Under the pieces are notes generated by a model. That model worked only from the letters and a program-made list of their open reading frames with translations, did not search any database and was not told the origin of the DNA. 64,000 nt of DNA from Halichondria panicea (lineage: Eukaryota; Porifera; Demospongiae; Suberitida; Halichondriidae). Every line of letters starts with the position of its first letter. Position 1 is the first letter of the stretch. The stretch spans positions 992,001 to 1,056,000 of the forward strand of contig NC_087382.1 in the NCBI RefSeq assembly GCF_963675165.1, in the 5' to 3' direction. The translations under genes and the position numbers were made by a program. Below, in pieces: positions 1 through 10,508 of this stretch.

Positions 1-185
1 GTGTCCAATGACCAGAAAAATTGTGAAAAAACATAGATTTTTGTTGGGCGGCTTTAAGAGATCCTGGAAGTTGGGCAAGGAGAGCTGTCTGAGGATCTGG
101 AATACCAGGGAATTGCTTTGATAGGGTGTTTAGACAAGCATCCATGTGCTTGTCAGTGAGTAAGCCTCCTTTCAGTAGTATCGAC
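1..185 (-). pseudogene. C48 (Ulp1-like) protease exon of the RecQ-MULE gene, part after the LTR-element insertion
   Basis: The minus strand has an open frame running off the left edge. It contains a stretch like LTDKHMDACLNTLSKQFPG followed by DPQTALLAQ, which resembles the start of the Ulp1/C48 protease-like domain found next to transposases in many marine invertebrate elements. The exon is split by the Ty3/Gypsy element at 186-4540. If the element and one copy of the TCGAC target duplication are ignored, the frame continues without a shift from the exon part at 4541-4624. The catalytic His/Asp/Cys residues would lie beyond the window, so the protease call is an inference from the N-terminal part only. 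Confidence 0.5.
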
Positions 186-335
186 TGTAATATGCTCTAG
201 AATCACTAGGTCTCATAAGATTCATAAGATATAATCAATCACTTTTAGTCCAGAACACATGTTATTACATAACTCAACATAAGCCATTACATCACTATAT
301 TGTAAGCTATAAATACAATAACCAATACTACTACA
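186..335 (-). repeat. 3' LTR of the Ty3/Gypsy element
   Basis: 150 bp with TG...CA ends, identical to 4391-4540. It is very short for an LTR. It lies directly after a polypurine tract on the minus strand. Confidence 0.95.
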
Positions 336-347
336 TCTCCCTTTCTT
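336..347 (-). promoter_or_regulatory. Polypurine tract of the Ty3/Gypsy element
   Basis: On the minus strand the sequence AAGAAAGGGAGA sits immediately upstream of the 3' LTR. This is the expected place and composition for the plus-strand primer of an LTR retrotransposon. Confidence 0.8.
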
Positions 348-367
348 AGTTCACTGTTCACCTAGGA

Positions 368-3300
368 TTATTTCCATGTTGGTTCGTATCGAGTAACAGG
401 ACGTGTTTGTCTGCCACTTCTCCGAGGAGTCTGTGTGTCCGTTTGAGTTTGAACTTGACTGTCGGATTCTGTCTGATTCTCAGATGTTTCTCTTTGCAGA
501 TTTATCTCAACTAGATTCCTTCTGTTTCTCCTATAGGTTCCACCTGGAGTGAGTACTGTGTAGGATCTTGGAGCTACTTCTTCGTCTACTATAGCTTCCT
601 CTTCTCGATCAGGTAGCCAAACCGTATTTCCTGGTATCAATTGAGATAACTCTCTAACTCCGTAGTGTTGATCGAATGTGTGCTTCTGTTTTGCTCTCTG
701 TGTCTCTTCTTTGTGTTCCAGAGACTCCACATTTGGGACCATCGGTTTCCTCATTTCTCTCGTTATCGGAACTGTTGTTCTGAGTTTTCGATTCATCAAG
801 AGCTCCGCTGGACTATACCCATTTTTGAGTGGTGTGGTTCGATAAACCAATAATGCTAAGTATGGATCCTTCTCTTTCTTGAGTAGATTCTTTAGCGTTC
901 CTATAGCTCTTTCTGCCTCTCCGTTACTTTGAGGGTGGTACGGACTTGACGTAACGTGATGAAATCCAAAGTTGTTAGCAAACTCTCGGTAGAGTCCTGA
1001 GCTGTACTGGGGTCCATTGTCTGACACTACCGTTTCGGGTATTCCATGTCTTGCAAAAATGCTTTTCGTGTGTCGCATTACTTCCTCTGTGGTTGTCTGT
1101 TTGAGTCTTGCAATTTCCATGTATCTCGAGTAATAATTGACAATCATCAAATAGTTTTCTTTCTTCCATTCGAATAGGTCAGTGCCTACTTTTTGAAATG
1201 GTAGATCCGGAAATTCTGAGGCAACTAGCGGTTCTGCTCTCTGCTTTTGTAGTTTACAACATTCTGGACAGCTTCTTACGAGCTCTTCCATTTGTTTAGA
1301 CAAGCCTGGCCACCAAACTGACACACGTGCTCGTTGTCTGCACTTCTCTATTCCCTGGTGACCTTGATGTAGCTTATCTAACATCTGTAGTCGCATTTCA
1401 GCTGGTATTAAGATCCTGTTTCCTCTCATCAGAATGCCGTTTTGTACTGACAATTCTGCAGCAACTTGGTAACATTGCTTGAGGGATCCTGTAAGTTGGT
1501 GTTTATCTGGCCATCCTTGCAGGCAATACTTTTTGAGTTGTTGACATGTTTCATCTTGGTTCTGTTTCTCTTTAATTTCTTCTAGGAGTTTATCTGACGC
1601 CGGAAGATGTTTCAAAACCATCTCTATATACACGTTTCCCTCTGCCTCTAGGTCGTGATTGTCTTGCATTGGATTACCGACTGGTGCTCTCGACAACATG
1701 TCTGCTACTATTAGATCCTTTCCAGGAACATGAGAAATAGTGTAGCAAAATCGCATCATTCGAAGTCGGAATCTTTGCACTCTGAGGGGTAATTTGTCCA
1801 ATGGCTTAACACTGAACAGGGGGACTAGTGGCTTGTGGTCAGTCTGGATGTGAAAGTCCATGCCAATGAGATACTCCGAATACCTTTCACTCGCCCATGT
1901 AAGTGCCAATGCCTCCTTTTCTATCTGTGCATATCGCTGCTCAGTAGGAGTCATCGATCTTGAGATGTATCCAATCGGTTTGAGATTCCCATCTGCTTGT
2001 TTCTGTAGGAGTGTGGCTCCAAGGCCATAGGAGGATGCATCTGCTGAGACTGTTGTGTCCAACATTGGGTCGAAAAGAGCTAAGACAGGGCTTGTTGTTA
2101 GCATCTCTTTGATCTGATCGAATGCACTTTGCTGTGGTTCTCCCCATGTCCACTGGTTGTCTTTGACCAATAAATCTCGTATCGGTTTGTTGATCTCTGC
2201 TAAATTCGGTGCAAATTTGCTCATCTGGTTTACTGTTCCCAGGAATCTGCGAACTTCTCGGACGTTCGTTGGGGTTGGAATCTTCTGGATCGCAGCCACT
2301 TTCTCTGGGTCTCCTCTTATGCCACTTTCGTCGATAATATGGCCCAGGAATCTTACTTGGTTCTGAGAAAACTTGCATTTCTCTTTGTTGAGTGTAAGAC
2401 CTTCTTTTCCAAGCTTGGTGAGCACCTTCGTCAGTCTCTCATCATGTTCTTGTTGGTTTGATCCATAGATGAGGAAATCATCGATCAGACATACTACTCC
2501 CTCCATATCTCCAACCATCTCTGACATTCGCCTTTGAAAATGCTCTGGAGCTGATGTGATGCCGAAAGGCAATCTGTGGAAGCAATACCTTCCAAAAGGG
2601 GTCATGAATGTGGTGAGGGGGATAGATTCTTCGGCAAGGGGAATTTGCCAGAACCCTGAATTGGCATCCAACTTGGAGAATATCTTTGCTCCTGCCAATT
2701 GCGCTAGGACTTGGTCCACTGAAGGTAATGGATGTCTCTCTCTGCGTACACTGTTGTTTAGGCGTGTTAGATCGACACAAATACGCACATTTCCATTCAG
2801 TTTTGGGGCTACCACCATGCCTGCACACCATTCAGTGGGCTGTGTGATCTTGCTTATCACTCCCTGTGTCTCCATTCGATCCAACTCTTGTTTCACTTTC
2901 TTCCGTAGCGGAACTGGAACTCGTCTTGGTATCGTAATGGCATATGGTGTGTGTTCGGGTTGGAGCTTGATATCGTATTCTGCTCTTAGTTTCCCCAGAC
3001 CTGTGAAGAGTTCTGGAAACTGTTTTGTTGGGTTTAGCTTTGCTGCTTTGACTTGGTCGATCATTTTGATCAGTCCTAGAGCTTCTATCGCTGGCTGTCC
3101 CAGTAGGGATTTGTGGAGATTCTTCACGACATAGATCTCTTGCTCTATCTCCCTGTCATTCCGTTTAATTTTTCCCATGAATTGTCCCATGACAGGAATC
3201 ACATACTTGTTTGGACCTCTGAATGTCTGATGTACTGGCGACAGTGGTGGGGCACCAGCTTTCTTGTACTCTCGTTCTGATATTAGGTTGACCTCTGCCC

Positions 3301-3535
3301 CTGTATCGATCTGAAATTCGGTGGGCTGTCCATTGAAGTCTAGAGTGATTTTCCATTGTTTATTTTCTTTTGATTGCACAGCTCCCAGAAAAAACTCCTC
3401 GCTTTTGTGTATTTCTCGGATGTGTTTAGTTTTGCACTGAGACTTGTAATGTCCTCGTTTTCCACACGTGGCATGTAGCCTCTTTAGCTGGGCAATGTTG
3501 CTTTTCATGTCCCGGTGTTTTTCCACAGCGGACAC
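368..3535 (-). CDS. pol: Ty3/Gypsy pol polyprotein (protease, RT, RNase H, integrase)
   Basis: A 1055-residue open frame. In order: the tail of a CCHC zinc knuckle (about residues 24-34), an aspartic protease with DTGA at 77-80, a reverse transcriptase with FSKLDANSGFWQIPL near 286-300 and the catalytic box LIDDF at 350-354 (the first residue of the usual YxDD box is replaced), an RNase H with a SADAS motif near 495 and its later DH pair, an integrase HHCC zinc finger (HQGHQG...CPECC), and an integrase core with GTDLFEW, VSDNGPQ and the downstream E in NGEAERA. The C-terminus is polar and Gln/Thr-rich. The annotated Met lies inside the zinc-knuckle region, so translation probably starts upstream in gag by frameshift or as a fusion. 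No internal stop is present. Confidence 0.95.
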   Translation of the reverse strand: MSAVEKHRDMKSNIAQLKRLHATCGKRGHYKSQCKTKHIREIHKSEEFFLGAVQSKENKQWKITLDFNGQPTEFQIDTGAEVNLISEREYKKAGAPPLSPVHQTFRGPNKYVIPVMGQFMGKIKRNDREIEQEIYVVKNLHKSLLGQPAIEALGLIKMIDQVKAAKLNPTKQFPELFTGLGKLRAEYDIKLQPEHTPYAITIPRRVPVPLRKKVKQELDRMETQGVISKITQPTEWCAGMVVAPKLNGNVRICVDLTRLNNSVRRERHPLPSVDQVLAQLAGAKIFSKLDANSGFWQIPLAEESIPLTTFMTPFGRYCFHRLPFGITSAPEHFQRRMSEMVGDMEGVVCLIDDFLIYGSNQQEHDERLTKVLTKLGKEGLTLNKEKCKFSQNQVRFLGHIIDESGIRGDPEKVAAIQKIPTPTNVREVRRFLGTVNQMSKFAPNLAEINKPIRDLLVKDNQWTWGEPQQSAFDQIKEMLTTSPVLALFDPMLDTTVSADASSYGLGATLLQKQADGNLKPIGYISRSMTPTEQRYAQIEKEALALTWASERYSEYLIGMDFHIQTDHKPLVPLFSVKPLDKLPLRVQRFRLRMMRFCYTISHVPGKDLIVADMLSRAPVGNPMQDNHDLEAEGNVYIEMVLKHLPASDKLLEEIKEKQNQDETCQQLKKYCLQGWPDKHQLTGSLKQCYQVAAELSVQNGILMRGNRILIPAEMRLQMLDKLHQGHQGIEKCRQRARVSVWWPGLSKQMEELVRSCPECCKLQKQRAEPLVASEFPDLPFQKVGTDLFEWKKENYLMIVNYYSRYMEIARLKQTTTEEVMRHTKSIFARHGIPETVVSDNGPQYSSGLYREFANNFGFHHVTSSPYHPQSNGEAERAIGTLKNLLKKEKDPYLALLVYRTTPLKNGYSPAELLMNRKLRTTVPITREMRKPMVPNVESLEHKEETQRAKQKHTFDQHYGVRELSQLIPGNTVWLPDREEEAIVDEEVAPRSYTVLTPGGTYRRNRRNLVEINLQRETSENQTESDSQVQTQTDTQTPRRSGRQTRPVTRYEPTWK

Positions 3536-4210
3536 AACTTATTTTGTCGTTAACAGTTTTATCGTTAAATCGTTTTCTGTTCTCGAAAGGTTGTCTTCCT
3601 TGTCCTTTTCCTTTAAATCCTTTTCGAAAGGCATTCACTTCTCTGGTATCTGGTTCTTTTTCTTTTCCTTGGCGGATTAATGGTTGTTGCATTTTAACAG
3701 TTTCTGCCTCTCTGGCTTGTGTGACTGCTTTCTCCAAGGTAAGTGCTGAGTCTAGCTGAAGTTTTAGTGACAAAGTCGCATCTCGAATGCCGACTACTAT
3801 TCTGTCCCTAATCATCTCTTCTTTCAGTACTCCATATGCACACTTCTCTGCTTGTGTGTGGAGAGCTGTTATGAAAGCATTGACAGTTTCTCCTTCTTCC
3901 TGTCTTCGTCTGTTAAACATGGCCCTCTCGTAAATGACATTGGTCCTTTTAACAAAGTGTCCATCGAACTTGCCTTTGACTGTTTCGTATTCCTTTTTTT
4001 GGTCTTCAGTCAAATCAAACGAGTGGAAGATGTCATCTGCCTGTGTTCCCATCGTATATATGATGTGTTGACCTGTGCTTTTTCTGGTTGCGCTTCCAGT
4101 CCTGATGCACTTCTAAAGCGTTCAAATCGCCTAATCCATTTTGTCCATTCGTTTGGAGTACCAAAGTTAAATGGTTCCGGAGGTGTGACTTGATACGTTG
4201 CTGTAGCCAT
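3426..4210 (-). pseudogene. gag: Ty3/Gypsy gag, broken by a frame change
   Basis: A start at 4210 gives MATATYQV... with a WTKWIRRFERFR motif, as in the gag capsid of many invertebrate Gypsy elements. This frame runs off near 4055. The second frame carries the rest of capsid (FDLTEDQKKEY, VIYERAMFNRR, VNAFITALHTQAE) and a first zinc knuckle CVRCGKTPGHEKQHC, then ends at 3426. The two frames are related by a small indel at about 4050-4065. A second shift separates gag from pol near 3475-3480, where the next zinc knuckle is read half in each frame. The gag/pol shift could be programmed; the one inside the capsid region is more likely a mutation or a sequence error. Confidence 0.85.
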
Positions 4211-4275
4211 CGTTCTTGGTTCTAGTTACTCTCTGATTTTTCACAAAACTCTTTGTAGTGTCTAAAGAAGAGTAC

Positions 4276-4293
4276 TAACCACCGCTTCCACCA
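4276..4293 (-). promoter_or_regulatory. Inner primer-binding site, degenerate
   Basis: On the minus strand TGGTGGAAGCGGTGGTTAG follows the extra LTR fragment. TGG is the complement of a tRNA CCA tail, and the next bases match the 3' end of a tRNA-Leu except for one or two changes. Confidence 0.7.
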
Positions 4294-4390
4294 TGTAATA
4301 TGCTCTAGAATCACTAGGTCTCATAAGATTCATAAGATATAATCACCAGTCATTTCGATGGCGTGGGTTCGGATCCCACCGCTGCCACCA
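4294..4390 (-). repeat. Duplicated 52-bp LTR end plus 45-bp copy of the 3' half of a tRNA-Leu
   Basis: 4294-4345 repeats the first 52 bp (plus-strand order) of the LTR. 4346-4390 reads, on the plus strand, as the 3' half of a type II tRNA ending in CCA: a long variable arm with a TTCG loop, a T arm GTGGG-TTCGGAT-CCCAC with a perfect 5-bp stem, and the acceptor 3' strand CGCTGCCACCA. It directly abuts the full LTR at 4391, so on the element's own strand it starts as the primer-binding site TGGTGGCAGCGGTGGG but is 45 nt long instead of about 18. It is a reverse-transcription copy of the primer tRNA, not a tRNA gene. Confidence 0.85.
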
Positions 4391-4540
4391 TGTAATATGC
4401 TCTAGAATCACTAGGTCTCATAAGATTCATAAGATATAATCAATCACTTTTAGTCCAGAACACATGTTATTACATAACTCAACATAAGCCATTACATCAC
4501 TATATTGTAAGCTATAAATACAATAACCAATACTACTACA
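4391..4540 (-). repeat. 5' LTR of the Ty3/Gypsy element
   Basis: 150 bp, identical to 186-335, followed by the target duplication TCGAC. Confidence 0.95.
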
Positions 4541-4624
4541 TCGACCTATCATTGTTCGTAAGTTTCAGAACTGAAATCCAATACTCGGTGGGTGTTGGAG
4601 GACTATCCGAGATCAGAATTTTAT
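4541..4624 (-). pseudogene. C48-like exon of the RecQ-MULE gene, part before the LTR-element insertion
   Basis: An acceptor (TTTTTATGCAG) precedes 4624 on the minus strand. The frame DKILISDSPPTPTEYW... runs to the target duplication and is in phase with the exon part at 1-185. This gives independent support that both halves are one exon interrupted by the retrotransposon. 4625-4825 is the intron to the next exon upstream. Confidence 0.55.
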
Positions 4625-4825
4625 CTGCATAAAAATAACTCAGTCTGAACGAATTCTATATGTAAATACTATACCTATAATTATATACATAAAATTAATG
4701 ATTTAAAGTGTACTCTCTTAATTGTTTGTACATCCTCCTATATGCGTAATTATAAAAATCATGTTAGATCGATCTACTAAATATAATACGCTTTGCCCCA
4801 TCTTCTCATAATTTTTAGTACCAAC

Positions 4826-6446
4826 CTGATTTCTCCTATTGCTGCTGTCTGCTAACTTAAAACTGTGTCTTGTTTTCTTGTGACCTGTTGGTGTATGATC
4901 ACCTGAATTGAATGCACGTTTTGTGTCGGGAGGACCTTCTGGGTCATCATTATCTGTGTGCAGTCTCTTTTGACGAGCTCGGTTTTGCTGGTCTGTCCTC
5001 TTGGAACGTGCACTTTCTGAAGGGCTGTCAAAGGATGTAGAGAGACCTTTTCTCTTTGCCATAATCTCTATACCTTTTGCCATATCCTCCCTATACGTGG
5101 CCATCATAGCTCCTTTTAAAGGAAGTGGGTGAGTAGGTTTGCCAAATCGATTGTGTAATTCTACCGCGTTTGTTGAGCTAGGTAACTCCCTGAAAGTTTC
5201 AGGATCCATCAGGCAGTAACATGGAGAGAGCATTCCTGTTTAAAAACATAGCTAAATGTACATGCTGATAAACATGCATTCATGTCAAATTATAATTATG
5301 CTCATTCAACTCACTCAAGTGGTTTGGTCTCATCCACCAGTTGCACCAGTTTTTGCTTGCCCTCCAATCGCTTGGCTTATGTTCCAAGCTGTAGTCTTTC
5401 AACAGTGCTGACTCGTCCAAGATTTGTACAGCTGATGAGAGTGGTTCGTCACCACATAAAACTTTAAATAAAGCCTCTACATGTGGTTTTGAGTCAAGGT
5501 TGGGAATGGCGTAAGCGATGGTAGTGAAAGCATTATGTGCCTTTGATTGTGACTTGTTAACTCTTTCGCTGACTCTTCTTACAAAGCGTTGGTAATGCAC
5601 CTATACGTACATATAGAAAGTAACAATAGAACATAATATATAGTCCAATTCTTTGGCTTACTTGGCAACCTTTCACCACTTTGTTGGCATTCTCTTCTCC
5701 AACTGCACTCTGAAGGCCTTTTAGTTGGGTGTCTGACCAGTCAGCGATGATTCCTTTTAGCGTATCTCCAACAGCAAACTCAGGATGTGCCACCTTTACT
5801 TGACTGAAAACAGCATGAAATGCTTGTTTGTAAGCAGGTGCATCCAACTTGTTCATTCGTACGCGAGCCACAACTGCCCCTGTGTATAATAATTAACAAT
5901 AAAACCGATAATTGTAAGTAAATACATATGTAACTTTAGTTACACTTACACTGGAGAGAACTGTAGTCAAAACAAACAATATTCAGCAGGTATTCCAGCT
6001 CAATAGATGCTTTGAACGTGGCATCTACTTCTGCGAAATCAGCCTTGCTAAGGATGTTTGCCATCATTGGACTCATGCTCACAACCCAGGTAGAAGTAGG
6101 ATTGAGAGAATAATTGCAGATGTATGGATGACCCAACTTTGCATACTCTTCCATATGCTCTGTATGAACAATAAAAACAGAGTTGTACATAACTATAGCC
6201 TCTTTCACGCATACTTTTACAATTATGCTAGAATTACTTTTTCGTAGCATTGCTCACCTGGGTTTCCCAACTGTTCATTCTGTTGTCGATCATACTTTAG
6301 TGTCTCGTCCTCAATTGTTAAGATCACTACTCCAGGAATTCTCTCCTCCTGAGGCTCTCTCAGAGTTGCTGTACGAAGGTTTTTCACTTTTCCCTTGTGT
6401 GCTGCGGCAAGAGACGCAGCTGCTGGTAGATATGATATCCCTTTGC
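4826..6446 (-). CDS. MULE-type DDE transposase region of the RecQ-MULE gene (five exons)
   Basis: Exons on the minus strand: 6258-6446, 5950-6159, 5662-5879, 5315-5600 and 4826-5235, each bounded by GT and AG. The first Asp lies in ADFAEVDATFK (5950-6159). The second lies in GIIADWSDTQLKGLQ (5662-5879). The CxxH motif C-Q-V-H is created by the splice between 5662 and 5600. The third acidic residue is in SSTNAVELHNR (4826-5235). This is the MULE-family arrangement, and all four diagnostic positions are present. After the E the last exon becomes polar and Lys/Arg-rich (RSKRTDQQNRARQKR), like a nuclear linker. It continues by splicing into the C48-like exon at 4624. It lies on the same strand as, and apparently in one transcript with, the helicase exons upstream. 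It may be a transposon gene or a domesticated one; copy number would tell. Confidence 0.8.
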
Positions 6447-6504
6447 CTGCAAAATGAGTAATGGTCATGAGCGTTATTTGATCATGCAGTTACAATGAAC
6501 TTAC

Positions 6505-7444
6505 CTGTCACTATGTCATGTGTCTTGAGTGTCGGATCGATTTGCAAGGCATGCTGAATGTCATATACAATCTTAGCGGGAACCTTAGTAGGGCCATGGA
6601 AAGAATGATTGTGGAAATTTGTTGATGCGAGGTTTCCTGTTCTCACAAGACCAGAAAGCCACCGCCGTTTGTCTTTGTTGTCAACTGGCCAGACATATAT
6701 AAATTCAACAGGACAGTCTTTGACAATATTGAGTGTGCTCTTAGAGTGTTCAGGGCAAGGACGATATTCCCTTGAAGATACTGTGTAGAAGCACCCCTTC
6801 ACAGAACAATGTTTAACCCCCCCCACATGCATGGTGCAATGCGATAGTTCACTTCTTGTCTAATCCCATCAATGCTGGTCATGATTTTTCGTGGAAGTCG
6901 TAGTTTGCCTTTTTCTAGTTGAATATCGTTGAAAAGAAAGTGTTCATCGTCCTCATATAGAAAGGGAGATGCGTGATGTCGGAAACATACCCTAATCTTT
7001 GAGGGTAAGCTGTTGAGAAATTTCCTGGATAATGATAATCTTCAGGTTTCTCGATTTCAAACCAATTGTCACTATCAGAGAGGAGGCTTGTGATTGTTGG
7101 CAAAAGACGTGTTCCTTTGCTGATTCTTGTCTTCTTAAAATTCGAGGGAGACGATGTTAAAGTATATGTTGTTGGTGGGGCTCCATGCAAAGGTGGCAGA
7201 TTGATTGGGGTGAGCACTTTAATCATCTTTCTTCCAGCGTCTGTGATTCGGTATTAAATACCATCGAAGACATTCTCTGATTGCCTTTGCCCAATTGCAT
7301 GCATCTGTCCAAGACACCACAGAGCCAGGCTTGCCGTATGCGAAGCCTCCACGCATTTTCAGACAAGAAAAAGTTAACGCCGAGTCCAAACGATTTGGCT
7401 TCATTTGTTTGCTCACAGCAGTATCCACGAAGCCACTCAGCAAT
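6505..7444 (-). pseudogene. RQC-like winged-helix and zinc-chelating region of the RecQ-MULE gene, with frame breaks
   Basis: One long exon after an acceptor at 7445 (GCACAG). It opens IAEWLRGYCCEQ, then WRLRIRQAWLCGVL and RITDAGRKMIKVL, which resemble the end of a RecQ RQC winged helix. A linker with KIRVCFRHHASPFLYED and RLPRKIMTSIDGIRQE follows, then a Cys/His module (CSVKGCFYTV, CPEH, CPVEFIYVWP, FHNHSFH) of the WRKY/FLYWCH type often found before MULE transposases. The frame changes at least three times: near 7226, near 7020, and in a run of eight G at 6817-6824 (plus strand C). The homopolymer site could be a sequence error. The exon ends at a GTAAG donor at 6504. Confidence 0.65.
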
Positions 7445-7532
7445 CTGTGCAATAATATAGAGATTGATAATTATACTATCAGTAGAATTACACATTCGTA
7501 TATTATGCATGTTAGTATAAGCAATCTTGTAC

Positions 7533-9409
7533 CTTTTTCTCTCCCTTGTTTGGAATTTCATCGACGACCTGGGCTATTGCAACTATTTCTTTCTGGCAGT
7601 CAGTCATTTCCAAAGACTCACTGCGAGAGCAAACATCACAACACTAAGTAGTCATCGAAACCTGGCCCTTTTCTCTCGTTTTATTGAAGTATTCAAGAAT
7701 GACACTCCTTCTACATTTCCCGTTATAGTGGGCAAGGGCAAATCTGCAAACACCAGCATCAAACTTAGCATGCATGTATTAATCACCTCCATACTGTTTG
7801 AAACTCCATGAGTAAAGTCTGCTGTTCATCTGAGGTCTTATCCTTGGTCCAATAGACTGCATGCTGTAAATCTGTTTCACTGAACATAAGCACTCCTGAA
7901 AAAAAGAGGCCTGATAGTTAATCAGCCTAAAATTATGTGCATAGTAAGGTATACACGTACATACATGCTTTAAAACGTCATGTTACTAAATAGACACTTT
8001 AATTACCTTTTGCTGGTCGTCCGTCTCTACCAGCTCTACCAAATTCTTGAACTAGTTCCTCAAGAGATGAAGGACACCCAACTCGCACCACTACTTCCAC
8101 ATCAGGAACATCCACACCCATCCCAAAGGTAGTAGTACATACCATAACCTGCATAATTATTAGTAAAAGAACCAAATTTGGGACAAACTATCTGCATGCA
8201 TACTGAACAAAATTATAAATCTTAGCACTGGTACCAGTGTGAGTAAAAAGTATACGAACATACCTGAATACCAGAATCAGATAGACACCAGTTATCAATT
8301 CAACAGCATTCACTTTGTCGTGGCTGGACATGTTTTTTCCATGAAAACTCCAAGTACTCAGCCCTTTTTCCCTCAGTGCAATAACCAATGGTGCTACATC
8401 TTTGACAAAGTCAATGTAAACAATCGCTCTCTGCTTCTGTACTATGTTTACAACATAATCGGCCAATTCAGTGTAGTAGGAAGGCCTACCTGTATGAACA
8501 TCATGTAATATTTAGGCCTGCATAATTGTTTGTATATACAACACGTACTTACTGAGGATGTAGTTGCGACGACATACACACTACATATAAAGTTTAAGGT
8601 TACCTTTCTTTGGCAGTTTCTTTAATTCATAGGCATGATAACGTATGTTCTCTTGGTTTATGCTTGCTACTTCCTGGCTTGGATTTCGTAGCATTGCTAG
8701 CAGTTGCACTTTGACTTGTGGTGTAGCAGTGGCAGTCAGGGTCATTAGTGGTACATTGGGGAAATGAAAACGCAGGTCTACCAGTGCTCCATATTCAGGT
8801 CTGCAAAATTACAGAGCAATGGTGTTGTATATTATTATGTGAATGCATGCATGCATGTGCAGTGTAATAAACTAGCAAAGATTAACACAATGCACATAAG
8901 TAAAGTACGTGTGCCATGTGGCATTACCTTAATGACTGCCAACTTGATATCAAATGAGCCTCGTCAACTGCAACCAACCCTATAGCTTGTTCTTCATAGC
9001 CAAATTCAGGAAAAATTCAGGGGGTTTTGTTGTCCCTCTTTCGTACAATGACTCGGGTGTGGTGAAAATGAGACGATAGTATTCACCTTGTTGTATTTGT
9101 TGAATAATGTTCTCTTTTTGGGCTGTACCAAGTAAAGCCGCCCTGATGCCTGTCTTGGTAAGCTTTTGTACTTGATCAACCATGAGGCTGATGATTGGCG
9201 AAATTACCAGTACAGTTTTGTTTTTACAAAGGGCAGGAATAACGTAGCATAGACTTTTCCCCTTCCTGTTGGTTGAACAATGAGGCTGTCTCTCCCCTGC
9301 ATTGTTGCAAGGATTGCGTTCATCTGCCACTGGTGGAGTCTGGGGATGCGGAAGTGTTGTGCTGCCAGACCGCATATTACAATCTGTTGCTTTTGTTTGT
9401 CGTGGATAT
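7533..9409 (-). pseudogene. RecQ-family DNA helicase region of the RecQ-MULE gene (six exons)
   Basis: Minus-strand exons: 8928-9409, 8604-8800, 8264-8489, 8007-8148, 7787-7895 and 7533-7743. Visible SF2/RecQ motifs in order: motif 0-like FRIPRLHQWQ; motif I QPTGRGK then GKSLCY; motif Ia ISPIISLMVDQVQ; motif II VAVDEAHLISSW; motif III PLMTLTATATPQV; motif IV AIVYIDFVKDV; motif V CTTTFGMGVDVPD; motif VI ELVQEFGRAGRDGRPAK; and the RecQ zinc region KCRRSVILEYF...CCDVC. This is an unmistakable RecQ helicase of the 3'-5' DNA-unwinding family. Frame breaks fall in the P-loop (about 9262), before DEAH (about 9010) and near 8310, and a TAG at 7644-7646 lies between the zinc-ligand cysteines. So this copy is either decayed or read with indel errors. 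Confidence 0.85.
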
Positions 9410-9569
9410 CTAAGCATACAAAGGAGAATTAAGACACGGTATACACACACATTGAAACACAAAGTACTTATCTAAGTAGACTCTTGAGCAAACACTATAC
9501 AATTAGGTGCGTGGATAAAAAAGTACCCAAGCATACTCGGATCCCTAATAATATTACGGATGTGTTTAC

Positions 9570-9929
9570 CTATATTTGTTTCAGATGGTTTTAGTGATTT
9601 TATTGAATGTTCAATTCTCTTTGAGTGTTTGTGCCTCAGGAGTGAACACTGCTGGCAATAATAGGAATCGCAATCTTCATAGAACACAGATGATGGATCA
9701 CTGCAGTTCTCACATTCTTCATATTCTGTAACACACAATAGATAAATAATAGGCATGCAACTTTGAATTACATGTAGGTCTTACCTGGTTTAGCATCAGC
9801 TGGTTCTTCACATGAATCAGCTGGTTGGTCTGATTCTTCACATGAATCAGCTGGTTCTTCAAAACAATCAGCTGGTTGGTGGGTTGATGATTCATATAAT
9901 TAAATTTCTTCTTCTTCTGCAATCTCCAT
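9570..9929 (-). CDS. N-terminal exons of the RecQ-MULE gene: acidic Pro/Cys repeat and B-box-like zinc finger
   Basis: Exon 9785-9929 starts at an ATG (9929) but has a TAA at 9900-9902. After it the frame reads a repeat of the type QPADSCEEPADSCEES, about four times. A GTAAG donor joins it in phase to 9570-9725, which carries ENCSDPSSVFYEDCDSYYC then QQCSLLRHKHSKRIEH. That is a CxxC...CxxC...HxH pattern like a B-box zinc finger. A donor GTAAAC leads in phase to the helicase exon at 9409. Because of the early TAA the true start is uncertain; an unseen 5' exon is possible. Confidence 0.55.
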
Positions 9930-10142
9930 TATCAACTACTTTATACAGCCTTTCATACAGTACTAGTATCTTTTCAAACAGTCTTGAATGAGCTAGTGAT
10001 CATGAGTTGGTGGATTTGATAGTGAAGCAACTAATTTATCAACATTAGCACCTTCATTAAATAATGTAAGCACCTCATATAATTACATATTTACATTAAC
10101 ATCTTTTGGTGGGCTATATCTCCCATGTTTGTCCTTCATGCA

Positions 10143-10508
10143 GGGGAAGACTTAGTGCCCTCAACCATTAAGCATATCCCATATTATTATAGGAGAGACT
10201 TAGTGCCCTCAATCATAAAACATATATCCCATTTATTATAGGAGAGACTTAGTGCCCCCAATCATAAAGCATATTATTATAGGAGAGCTTTAGTGCTGGG
10301 CACACCAAATCATTCCTATAGTCATATCTGATATATATAGGAAAGGTTTAATGCAAGGGGCATTGCATCCTTCCTAAAGTAATATAGGAGAGTATTAGTG
10401 CCCTCAGTCATTAAGAACCTCCCATATTATTATAGGAGAGACTTAGTGCCGAGCATTAAGCGTATCACATATCATTATAGGAGAGACTTTGATAGTGCCC
10501 TCAATCAT
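10143..10508. repeat. Tandem repeat with unit of about 45-55 bp
   Basis: About seven or eight diverged units, each containing TATAGGAGAGACTTAGTGCC followed by a CTCAATCATTAAGCATA-like stretch and a CCATATTATTA spacer. It lies just upstream of the RecQ-MULE gene start. The interval 9930-10142 holds no recognised feature. Confidence 0.85.

Follow-up and report, generated by a model that had tools for sequence, protein, structure and literature searches.

How a RecQ helicase and a transposase come to follow each other on one strand, as two neighbours or as one protein of one mobile element, is the question raised by a locus of the sponge Halichondria panicea. It lies at one end of a stretch of 64,000 nucleotides (C6:992001-1056000, contig C6 being NC_087382.1), which is here called the window; plain positions refer to it, and the genome searched comprises 131 Mb in 39 contigs. 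In our view this locus is likely to represent a DNA transposon copy, now degenerate, in which a complete RecQ core, with helicase lobes, zinc site and RQC, is N-terminal to a DDE (Asp-Asp-Glu) transposase of Mutator/IS256-like type, with an exon for a C48-like protease after it. The active-site residues of both enzymes are conserved, and the locus forms one unit bounded by inverted repeats.

Fused relatives in other genomes

The relatives were collected by a search with the window protein (8000 of its candidates scored), which gave protein P0001, and a search with P0001, which gave 71 others, the whole set comprising 78 proteins. Single open reading frames (ORFs) elsewhere hold both the RecQ helicase and the transposase, and the fused relatives map colinearly on the window copy by tblastn. 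When a part is counted as present at an occupancy above 60%, the helicase part is found in 25 of the 78 proteins, 17 of which also have the transposase D..H stretch; RQC together with transposase is found in 26, and both helicase halves, RQC, zinc module and transposase in 14. Many of the 53 proteins without a scored helicase part are fragments; they are therefore no evidence for a helicase-free form, and none against one either. Pairwise distances between the helicase parts and between the transposase parts are correlated, as expected if they belong to one gene (r 0.86 over the 136 pairs of 17 proteins, a value reached by 0 of 2000 permutations). A branch with 99/96 support separates the 17 fused proteins from the rest of a 27-helicase tree, in which the host-type RECQL gene stands apart from them; the branch of the window row is very long (2.14), and all 10 outgroup rows come from this genome. 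Because fused proteins occur in other genomes, the pairing of RecQ and transposase is real and not a chance neighbourhood. The original prediction, which put RecQ into the same protein as the transposase and depended on their homologs being adjacent elsewhere, is in this respect well supported by the single-ORF relatives, the colinear mapping and the single element within its terminal inverted repeats (TIRs).

That the helicase is a RecQ is clear from TIGR00614, which scores 339.1 bits in P0008, 343.9 in P0030 and 318.8 in P0056 against a cut-off of 219.8. The RecQ zinc site (CCDVC) is present in the relatives and in the window, and so is RQC in the family, its Pfam model being above cut-off in P0030 and P0056 and below it in P0008, P0013 and P0033; the structure 1oyw could be aligned over residues 33-568 of the predicted model of P0010. 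A comparison of the family profile with PDB chains gave six matches at E up to 10, five of them to RecQ/WRN (best E 0.00096) and one to CLIP1 (0.44), and matched no transposase. RecQ-like matches number 87 in this genome. PADLOC matches to DpdF and other helicases were put down to the shared helicase core and were not used.

Two distant relatives, P0076 and P0078 (26% identity), have an N-terminal part that looks RQC-like by eye, with no RQC match by Pfam in P0076; these N-termini hint that the fusion may be old. Scans of prokaryotic and viral contigs gave 58 and 43 pattern matches, none of them confirmed as a relative; with patterns this short, the negative is a weak one.

Organization of the locus

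The gene model has 13 exons and runs from 9725 down to 4831 on the minus strand. Exon edges were placed by eye at AG/GT sites, and the splice sites are not independent evidence. The features are as follows.

9943..10508, unstranded: remnant of the left terminal inverted repeat (its subterminal repeats), outer part missing; from blastn to the deletion derivatives L057/L058 and from the termini of other copies
9570..9725, minus: B-box zinc finger exon; zf-B_box and ANCHR-like B-box, matching position in the fused relative P0033
8928..9409, minus: RecQ exon with what we take to be motifs I and II, two frame changes; from DEAD, frames and tblastn
8604..8800, minus: RecQ exon with LTATAT, motif III region
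8264..8489, minus: RecQ exon, motif IV region, one frame change
8007..8148, minus: RecQ exon with GRAGRDG, motifs V and VI; Helicase_C
7787..7895, minus: RecQ exon past motif VI
7533..7743, minus: RecQ zinc-binding exon, CRR ... CCDVC, one in-frame stop
6505..7444, minus: RQC-like part, linker and transposase Cys/His module in a single exon, three frame changes; RQC Pfam in relatives
6258..6446, minus: transposase exon 1
5950..6159, minus: transposase exon 2, first catalytic D
5662..5879, minus: transposase exon 3, second catalytic D and C of CxVH
5315..5600, minus: transposase exon 4, H of CxVH and stretch preceding E
4831..5235, minus: transposase exon 5, catalytic E (TNAVE), 3' edge approximate
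4558..4624, minus: C48-like protease exon, first part, cut by a Ty3-type insertion; read by eye and from the insertion edges
186..4557, minus: inserted Ty3-type long terminal repeat (LTR) retrotransposon, foreign to the transposon; 167-bp repeats at 186-352 and 4391-4557
1..185, minus: C48-like protease exon, remainder within the window, continuing to C6:991666

All the domains named in the original prediction are found on the minus strand in the order that it gave: RecQ, zinc, RQC/Cys-His, transposase D, D, CxVH and E, and the C48-like ORF. Profile searches of the individual exons, which it had proposed, bore out the helicase, with DEAD (E 5.5e-9) and Helicase_C (E 4.7e-11) matched by single ORF pieces of exons 9409-7787. 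For the other enzymes they did not: Peptidase_C48 stayed below its cut-off on the C48-like ORF (E 0.15; 12.3 bits vs. 20.7), and ten window ORF pieces scanned singly gave no match to any transposase model. On the ORF at 9725-9570, zf-B_box (PF00643, E 2.6e-4) and the ANCHR-like B-box (E 2.9e-5) are both slightly below cut-off; P0033 has the B-box as well. The element exceeds the span first noted, its left repeats extending to about 10508 and its right end lying near C6:990,928, some 1.07 kb to the left of the window.

The mobile unit

Six further sites in the genome hold parts of the C-terminal transposase exons. The two C1 sites and those on C13 and C3 (one each) have 77-93% identity, and the sites on C10 and C2 are more diverged (53-73%). 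In two of these copies, L057 and L058, the left repeats are joined straight to window position 5714, from where the sequence continues up to the inverted repeat copy; these two are counted as one deletion event because the junction is identical, and the junctions of L019 and L022 differ from it. The element ends read GGGTC... or GGTTCC..., followed by TGTCACTAAATGAAAAAAGTGCCC. Target duplications of 9 bp could be read at all four copies with both ends found, two of them perfect (GATTATTCT at L058 and GCTGGCGAG at L019, each 9/9) and two with one mismatch (GTAAAATAC/GTAAAATCC at L022, 8/9, and TACAGTAAT/TACAGTAAC at L057 with L011, 8/9, where the right end is without its last base). At up to two mismatches the genome contains 28 instances of the terminal motif, 17 of them exact, and none of its reversed control. 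As to the further copies that the original prediction looked for, the genome holds TIR-bounded deletion derivatives and, among the best-scoring candidates, no second copy bearing a helicase. With their TIRs and duplications, the derivatives suggest mobility in trans.

At C11:3.97-4.22 Mb, nine matches to the terminal motif share a strand, with several protease fragments on the opposite one, which suggests a repeated block holding an end of the RecQ-transposase transposon.

Placement of the transposase

The catalytic triad is well conserved among the aligned members (D873 in 62 of 64, D944 in 56 of 60, E1093 in 33 of 35), as is a CxxH between the second D and the E (C969 and H972, each in 50 of 53). 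The core has the RNase H-like fold and the DDE residues of Mutator/MuDR transposases; the best structural match to the predicted transposase model (VIA-align) is ISCth4, of the IS256 family, a match that came from the predicted model and not from a sequence profile. CxxH is common to Mutator, hAT, P, Kolobok and Dada. Target duplications of Mutator/MuDR elements are usually 8-10 bp, and the 9 bp found at four copies agree with this; IS256 and MuDR together span 4-10 bp (PMC10045372). The family thus shares with Mutator/MuDR and the prokaryotic IS256 (ISCth4) a DDE core with CxxH, 9-bp duplications, long TIRs and a Cys/His module preceding the core, and differs from them by the RecQ core at its N-terminus and by weak scores with curated models. 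The cut-offs of MULE (PF10551) and Transposase_mut (PF00872) were missed (15.8 vs. 27.6 bits in P0056 and 11.3 vs. 21 in the window protein), the best E values over 63 members being 0.01 (4 members) and 0.0021 (6 members). Since these curated models miss their cut-offs in the proteins scanned singly, the assignment to standard Mutator-like elements (MULEs) is not supported, and we call the superfamily Mutator-like, with moderate confidence. Neither hAT (P 0.8; a shallow profile of 4 sequences) nor DUF6589 (P 0.36; 2 sequences) gave a profile match as a relative of the transposase.

Decay of the window copy

The exon at 9409-8928 requires three frames, with two frame changes; there is one change in 8489-8264 and there are three in 7444-6505, and the exon at 7743-7533 contains CCDVC and one in-frame stop. 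The segment 7661-7621 was considered as an intron and rejected, being coding sequence with CCDVC and the stop. Tblastn with P0008 and P0006 places frame switches near 9261/9216, 7253/7244, 6966/6951 and 6826/6820, too tight for an intron. Single sites of this kind may be assembly errors. Judged by its sequence, the window copy as assembled cannot encode the fusion, because of the frame changes and the stop, and it is dead and degenerate; together with the Ty3-type insertion, these speak against the working gene first envisaged.

A possible role of the helicase

We are evenly divided on whether the helicase has a role in transposition. If it has, the Cys/His module and RQC would place the fused protein on the element ends, the DDE core would cut and join them, and RecQ would be a 3'-5' motor acting in cis. 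It might, during assembly, open the terminal repeats, which are long and prone to form hairpins; slightly more likely is that it remodels the product of strand transfer, or the gap product, for repair and copying. Repair is a known role of RecQ helicases, and host members such as BLM and WRN work on intermediates of recombination and repair that resemble those left by transposition. Compared with shuffled sequences, the L058 terminal repeats fold better (z -5.45 with 20 shuffles and -7.07 with 100; an internal stretch gave +0.27 with 20), and a role of RecQ in opening the ends is thereby thinkable; any inverted-repeat array would fold in this way, however.

No RecQ fused to a Mutator-type transposase was reported in the literature searched, most subscription papers and Repbase lying outside it. 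RecQ in transposons as such is already known from KolobokH and one red-algal Kolobok (PMC9587614) and from Academ (PMC3627910). We lean slightly towards seeing here a new lineage of Mutator-like transposons whose transposase is fused to an entire RecQ. Eukaryotic cut-and-paste elements would then have captured RecQ independently once more, besides the cases of KolobokH and Academ, and in this lineage the helicase would act in cis within the transpososome, its substrate being the repair product or the ends prone to hairpins. A transposase that carries a RecQ of its own would make it directly testable why several unrelated transposons took up one helicase, and the fused protein is a model for helicase and DDE transposase in one polypeptide.

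A second RecQ transposon

The genome contains a distinct RecQ element as well, in which a DUF6589 gene stands tail to tail with a RecQ gene (L036-L042 on C17, C1, C8 and C10; L080 and L081). Over some 3 kb, starting at a sharp left edge, L037-L041 match L036 with 99.9% identity or more; a sixth further locus is 97.7% identical to it over 1.6 kb. The element is recently active. Its terminus is TAGCCTCGAGACCAGCC. The copy on C17, the sole one with two matching ends, has a perfect 9-bp duplication, CTATGATAT; a second copy whose right end was fetched had no matching pair. The first 9 bases of the right flank of L040 (C10:1619645-1623706), TGGTTCTAT, are also the last 9 of the left flank of L039 (C10:1595359-1599420), which has the opposite orientation; an inversion of the intervening stretch by recombination between the copies would give this pattern. 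The helicases of this element form a clade separate from the window-type fused helicases. We take DUF6589 to be the Academ transposase and this element to be probably AcademH, which speaks for the window element being of another kind; a literature search on DUF6589 found nothing.

Alternative explanations

AcademH, reportedly due to Kojima in 2020, is a helicase-bearing lineage of animals and fungi, and that the window element itself belongs to it and is not related to Mutator seems unlikely. AcademH combines a helicase with duplications of 9 or 10 bp (PMC10045372) and a RecQ helicase is given for Academ (PMC3627910); the window family has the helicase and the 9-bp duplications alike. The RecQ and DUF6589 transposon of the same genome, with its own 9-bp duplication, fits AcademH at least as well and is probably the likelier candidate; its helicases fall in another clade and its DUF6589 has no profile match to the window-type transposase. 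A C/DxxH motif is not listed for Academ in the literature searched, whereas the window family has CxxH. KolobokH, likewise a DDE transposon carrying RecQ, and Kolobok, which has the C/DxxH motif too, suggest a KolobokH-like element with a captured RecQ, an origin that is very improbable: according to PMC9587614, KolobokH is reported from fungi only (one red-algal Kolobok has RecQ on the other strand) and its RecQ lies downstream of the transposase, not upstream on the same strand as here. Kolobok and KolobokH duplicate TTAA, and they are rejected because of the four different 9-bp, non-TTAA duplications of the window family.

The split of the window copy across frames and the abundance of RecQ-like matches (the 87 mentioned above) would suit a host RecQ gene that happens to lie beside a transposase, an explanation with next to no probability left; it is ruled out by the single ORFs that hold both enzymes, the RQC part and the transposase zinc module share one exon, and the host-type RECQL gene is apart from the fused helicases in the tree. 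A host gene domesticated from a RecQ-transposase and retained for DNA repair would account for the single helicase-bearing copy among the best candidates in this genome, but this copy is interrupted by frame changes and a stop, and the deletion derivatives point to mobility in trans, so that we hold domestication, too, to be very improbable.

The C48-like protease and the Ty3-type insertion

Plant MULEs can carry Ulp1-type proteases, and the window element resembles them in having a C48-type protease beside a Mutator-type transposase; it differs by its RecQ, and we know of no helicase in those plant elements. The C48-like ORF, which may belong to the fused protein, has 173 amino acids (184-1 and beyond), and its H/D/Q/C residues are present as seen by eye only. 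The genome yields 149 matches to it, fragments counted, and such proteases are therefore common here. The exon is interrupted by the Ty3-type element at 186-4557, which has an open pol frame of 1056 amino acids and 167-bp LTRs that are 97% identical. At the position of the C48-like exon, the end of P0008 (residues 1220-1254) weakly resembles a Tudor domain (E 0.024), and 2 of 63 members match Tudor_5 there (best E 6e-5).
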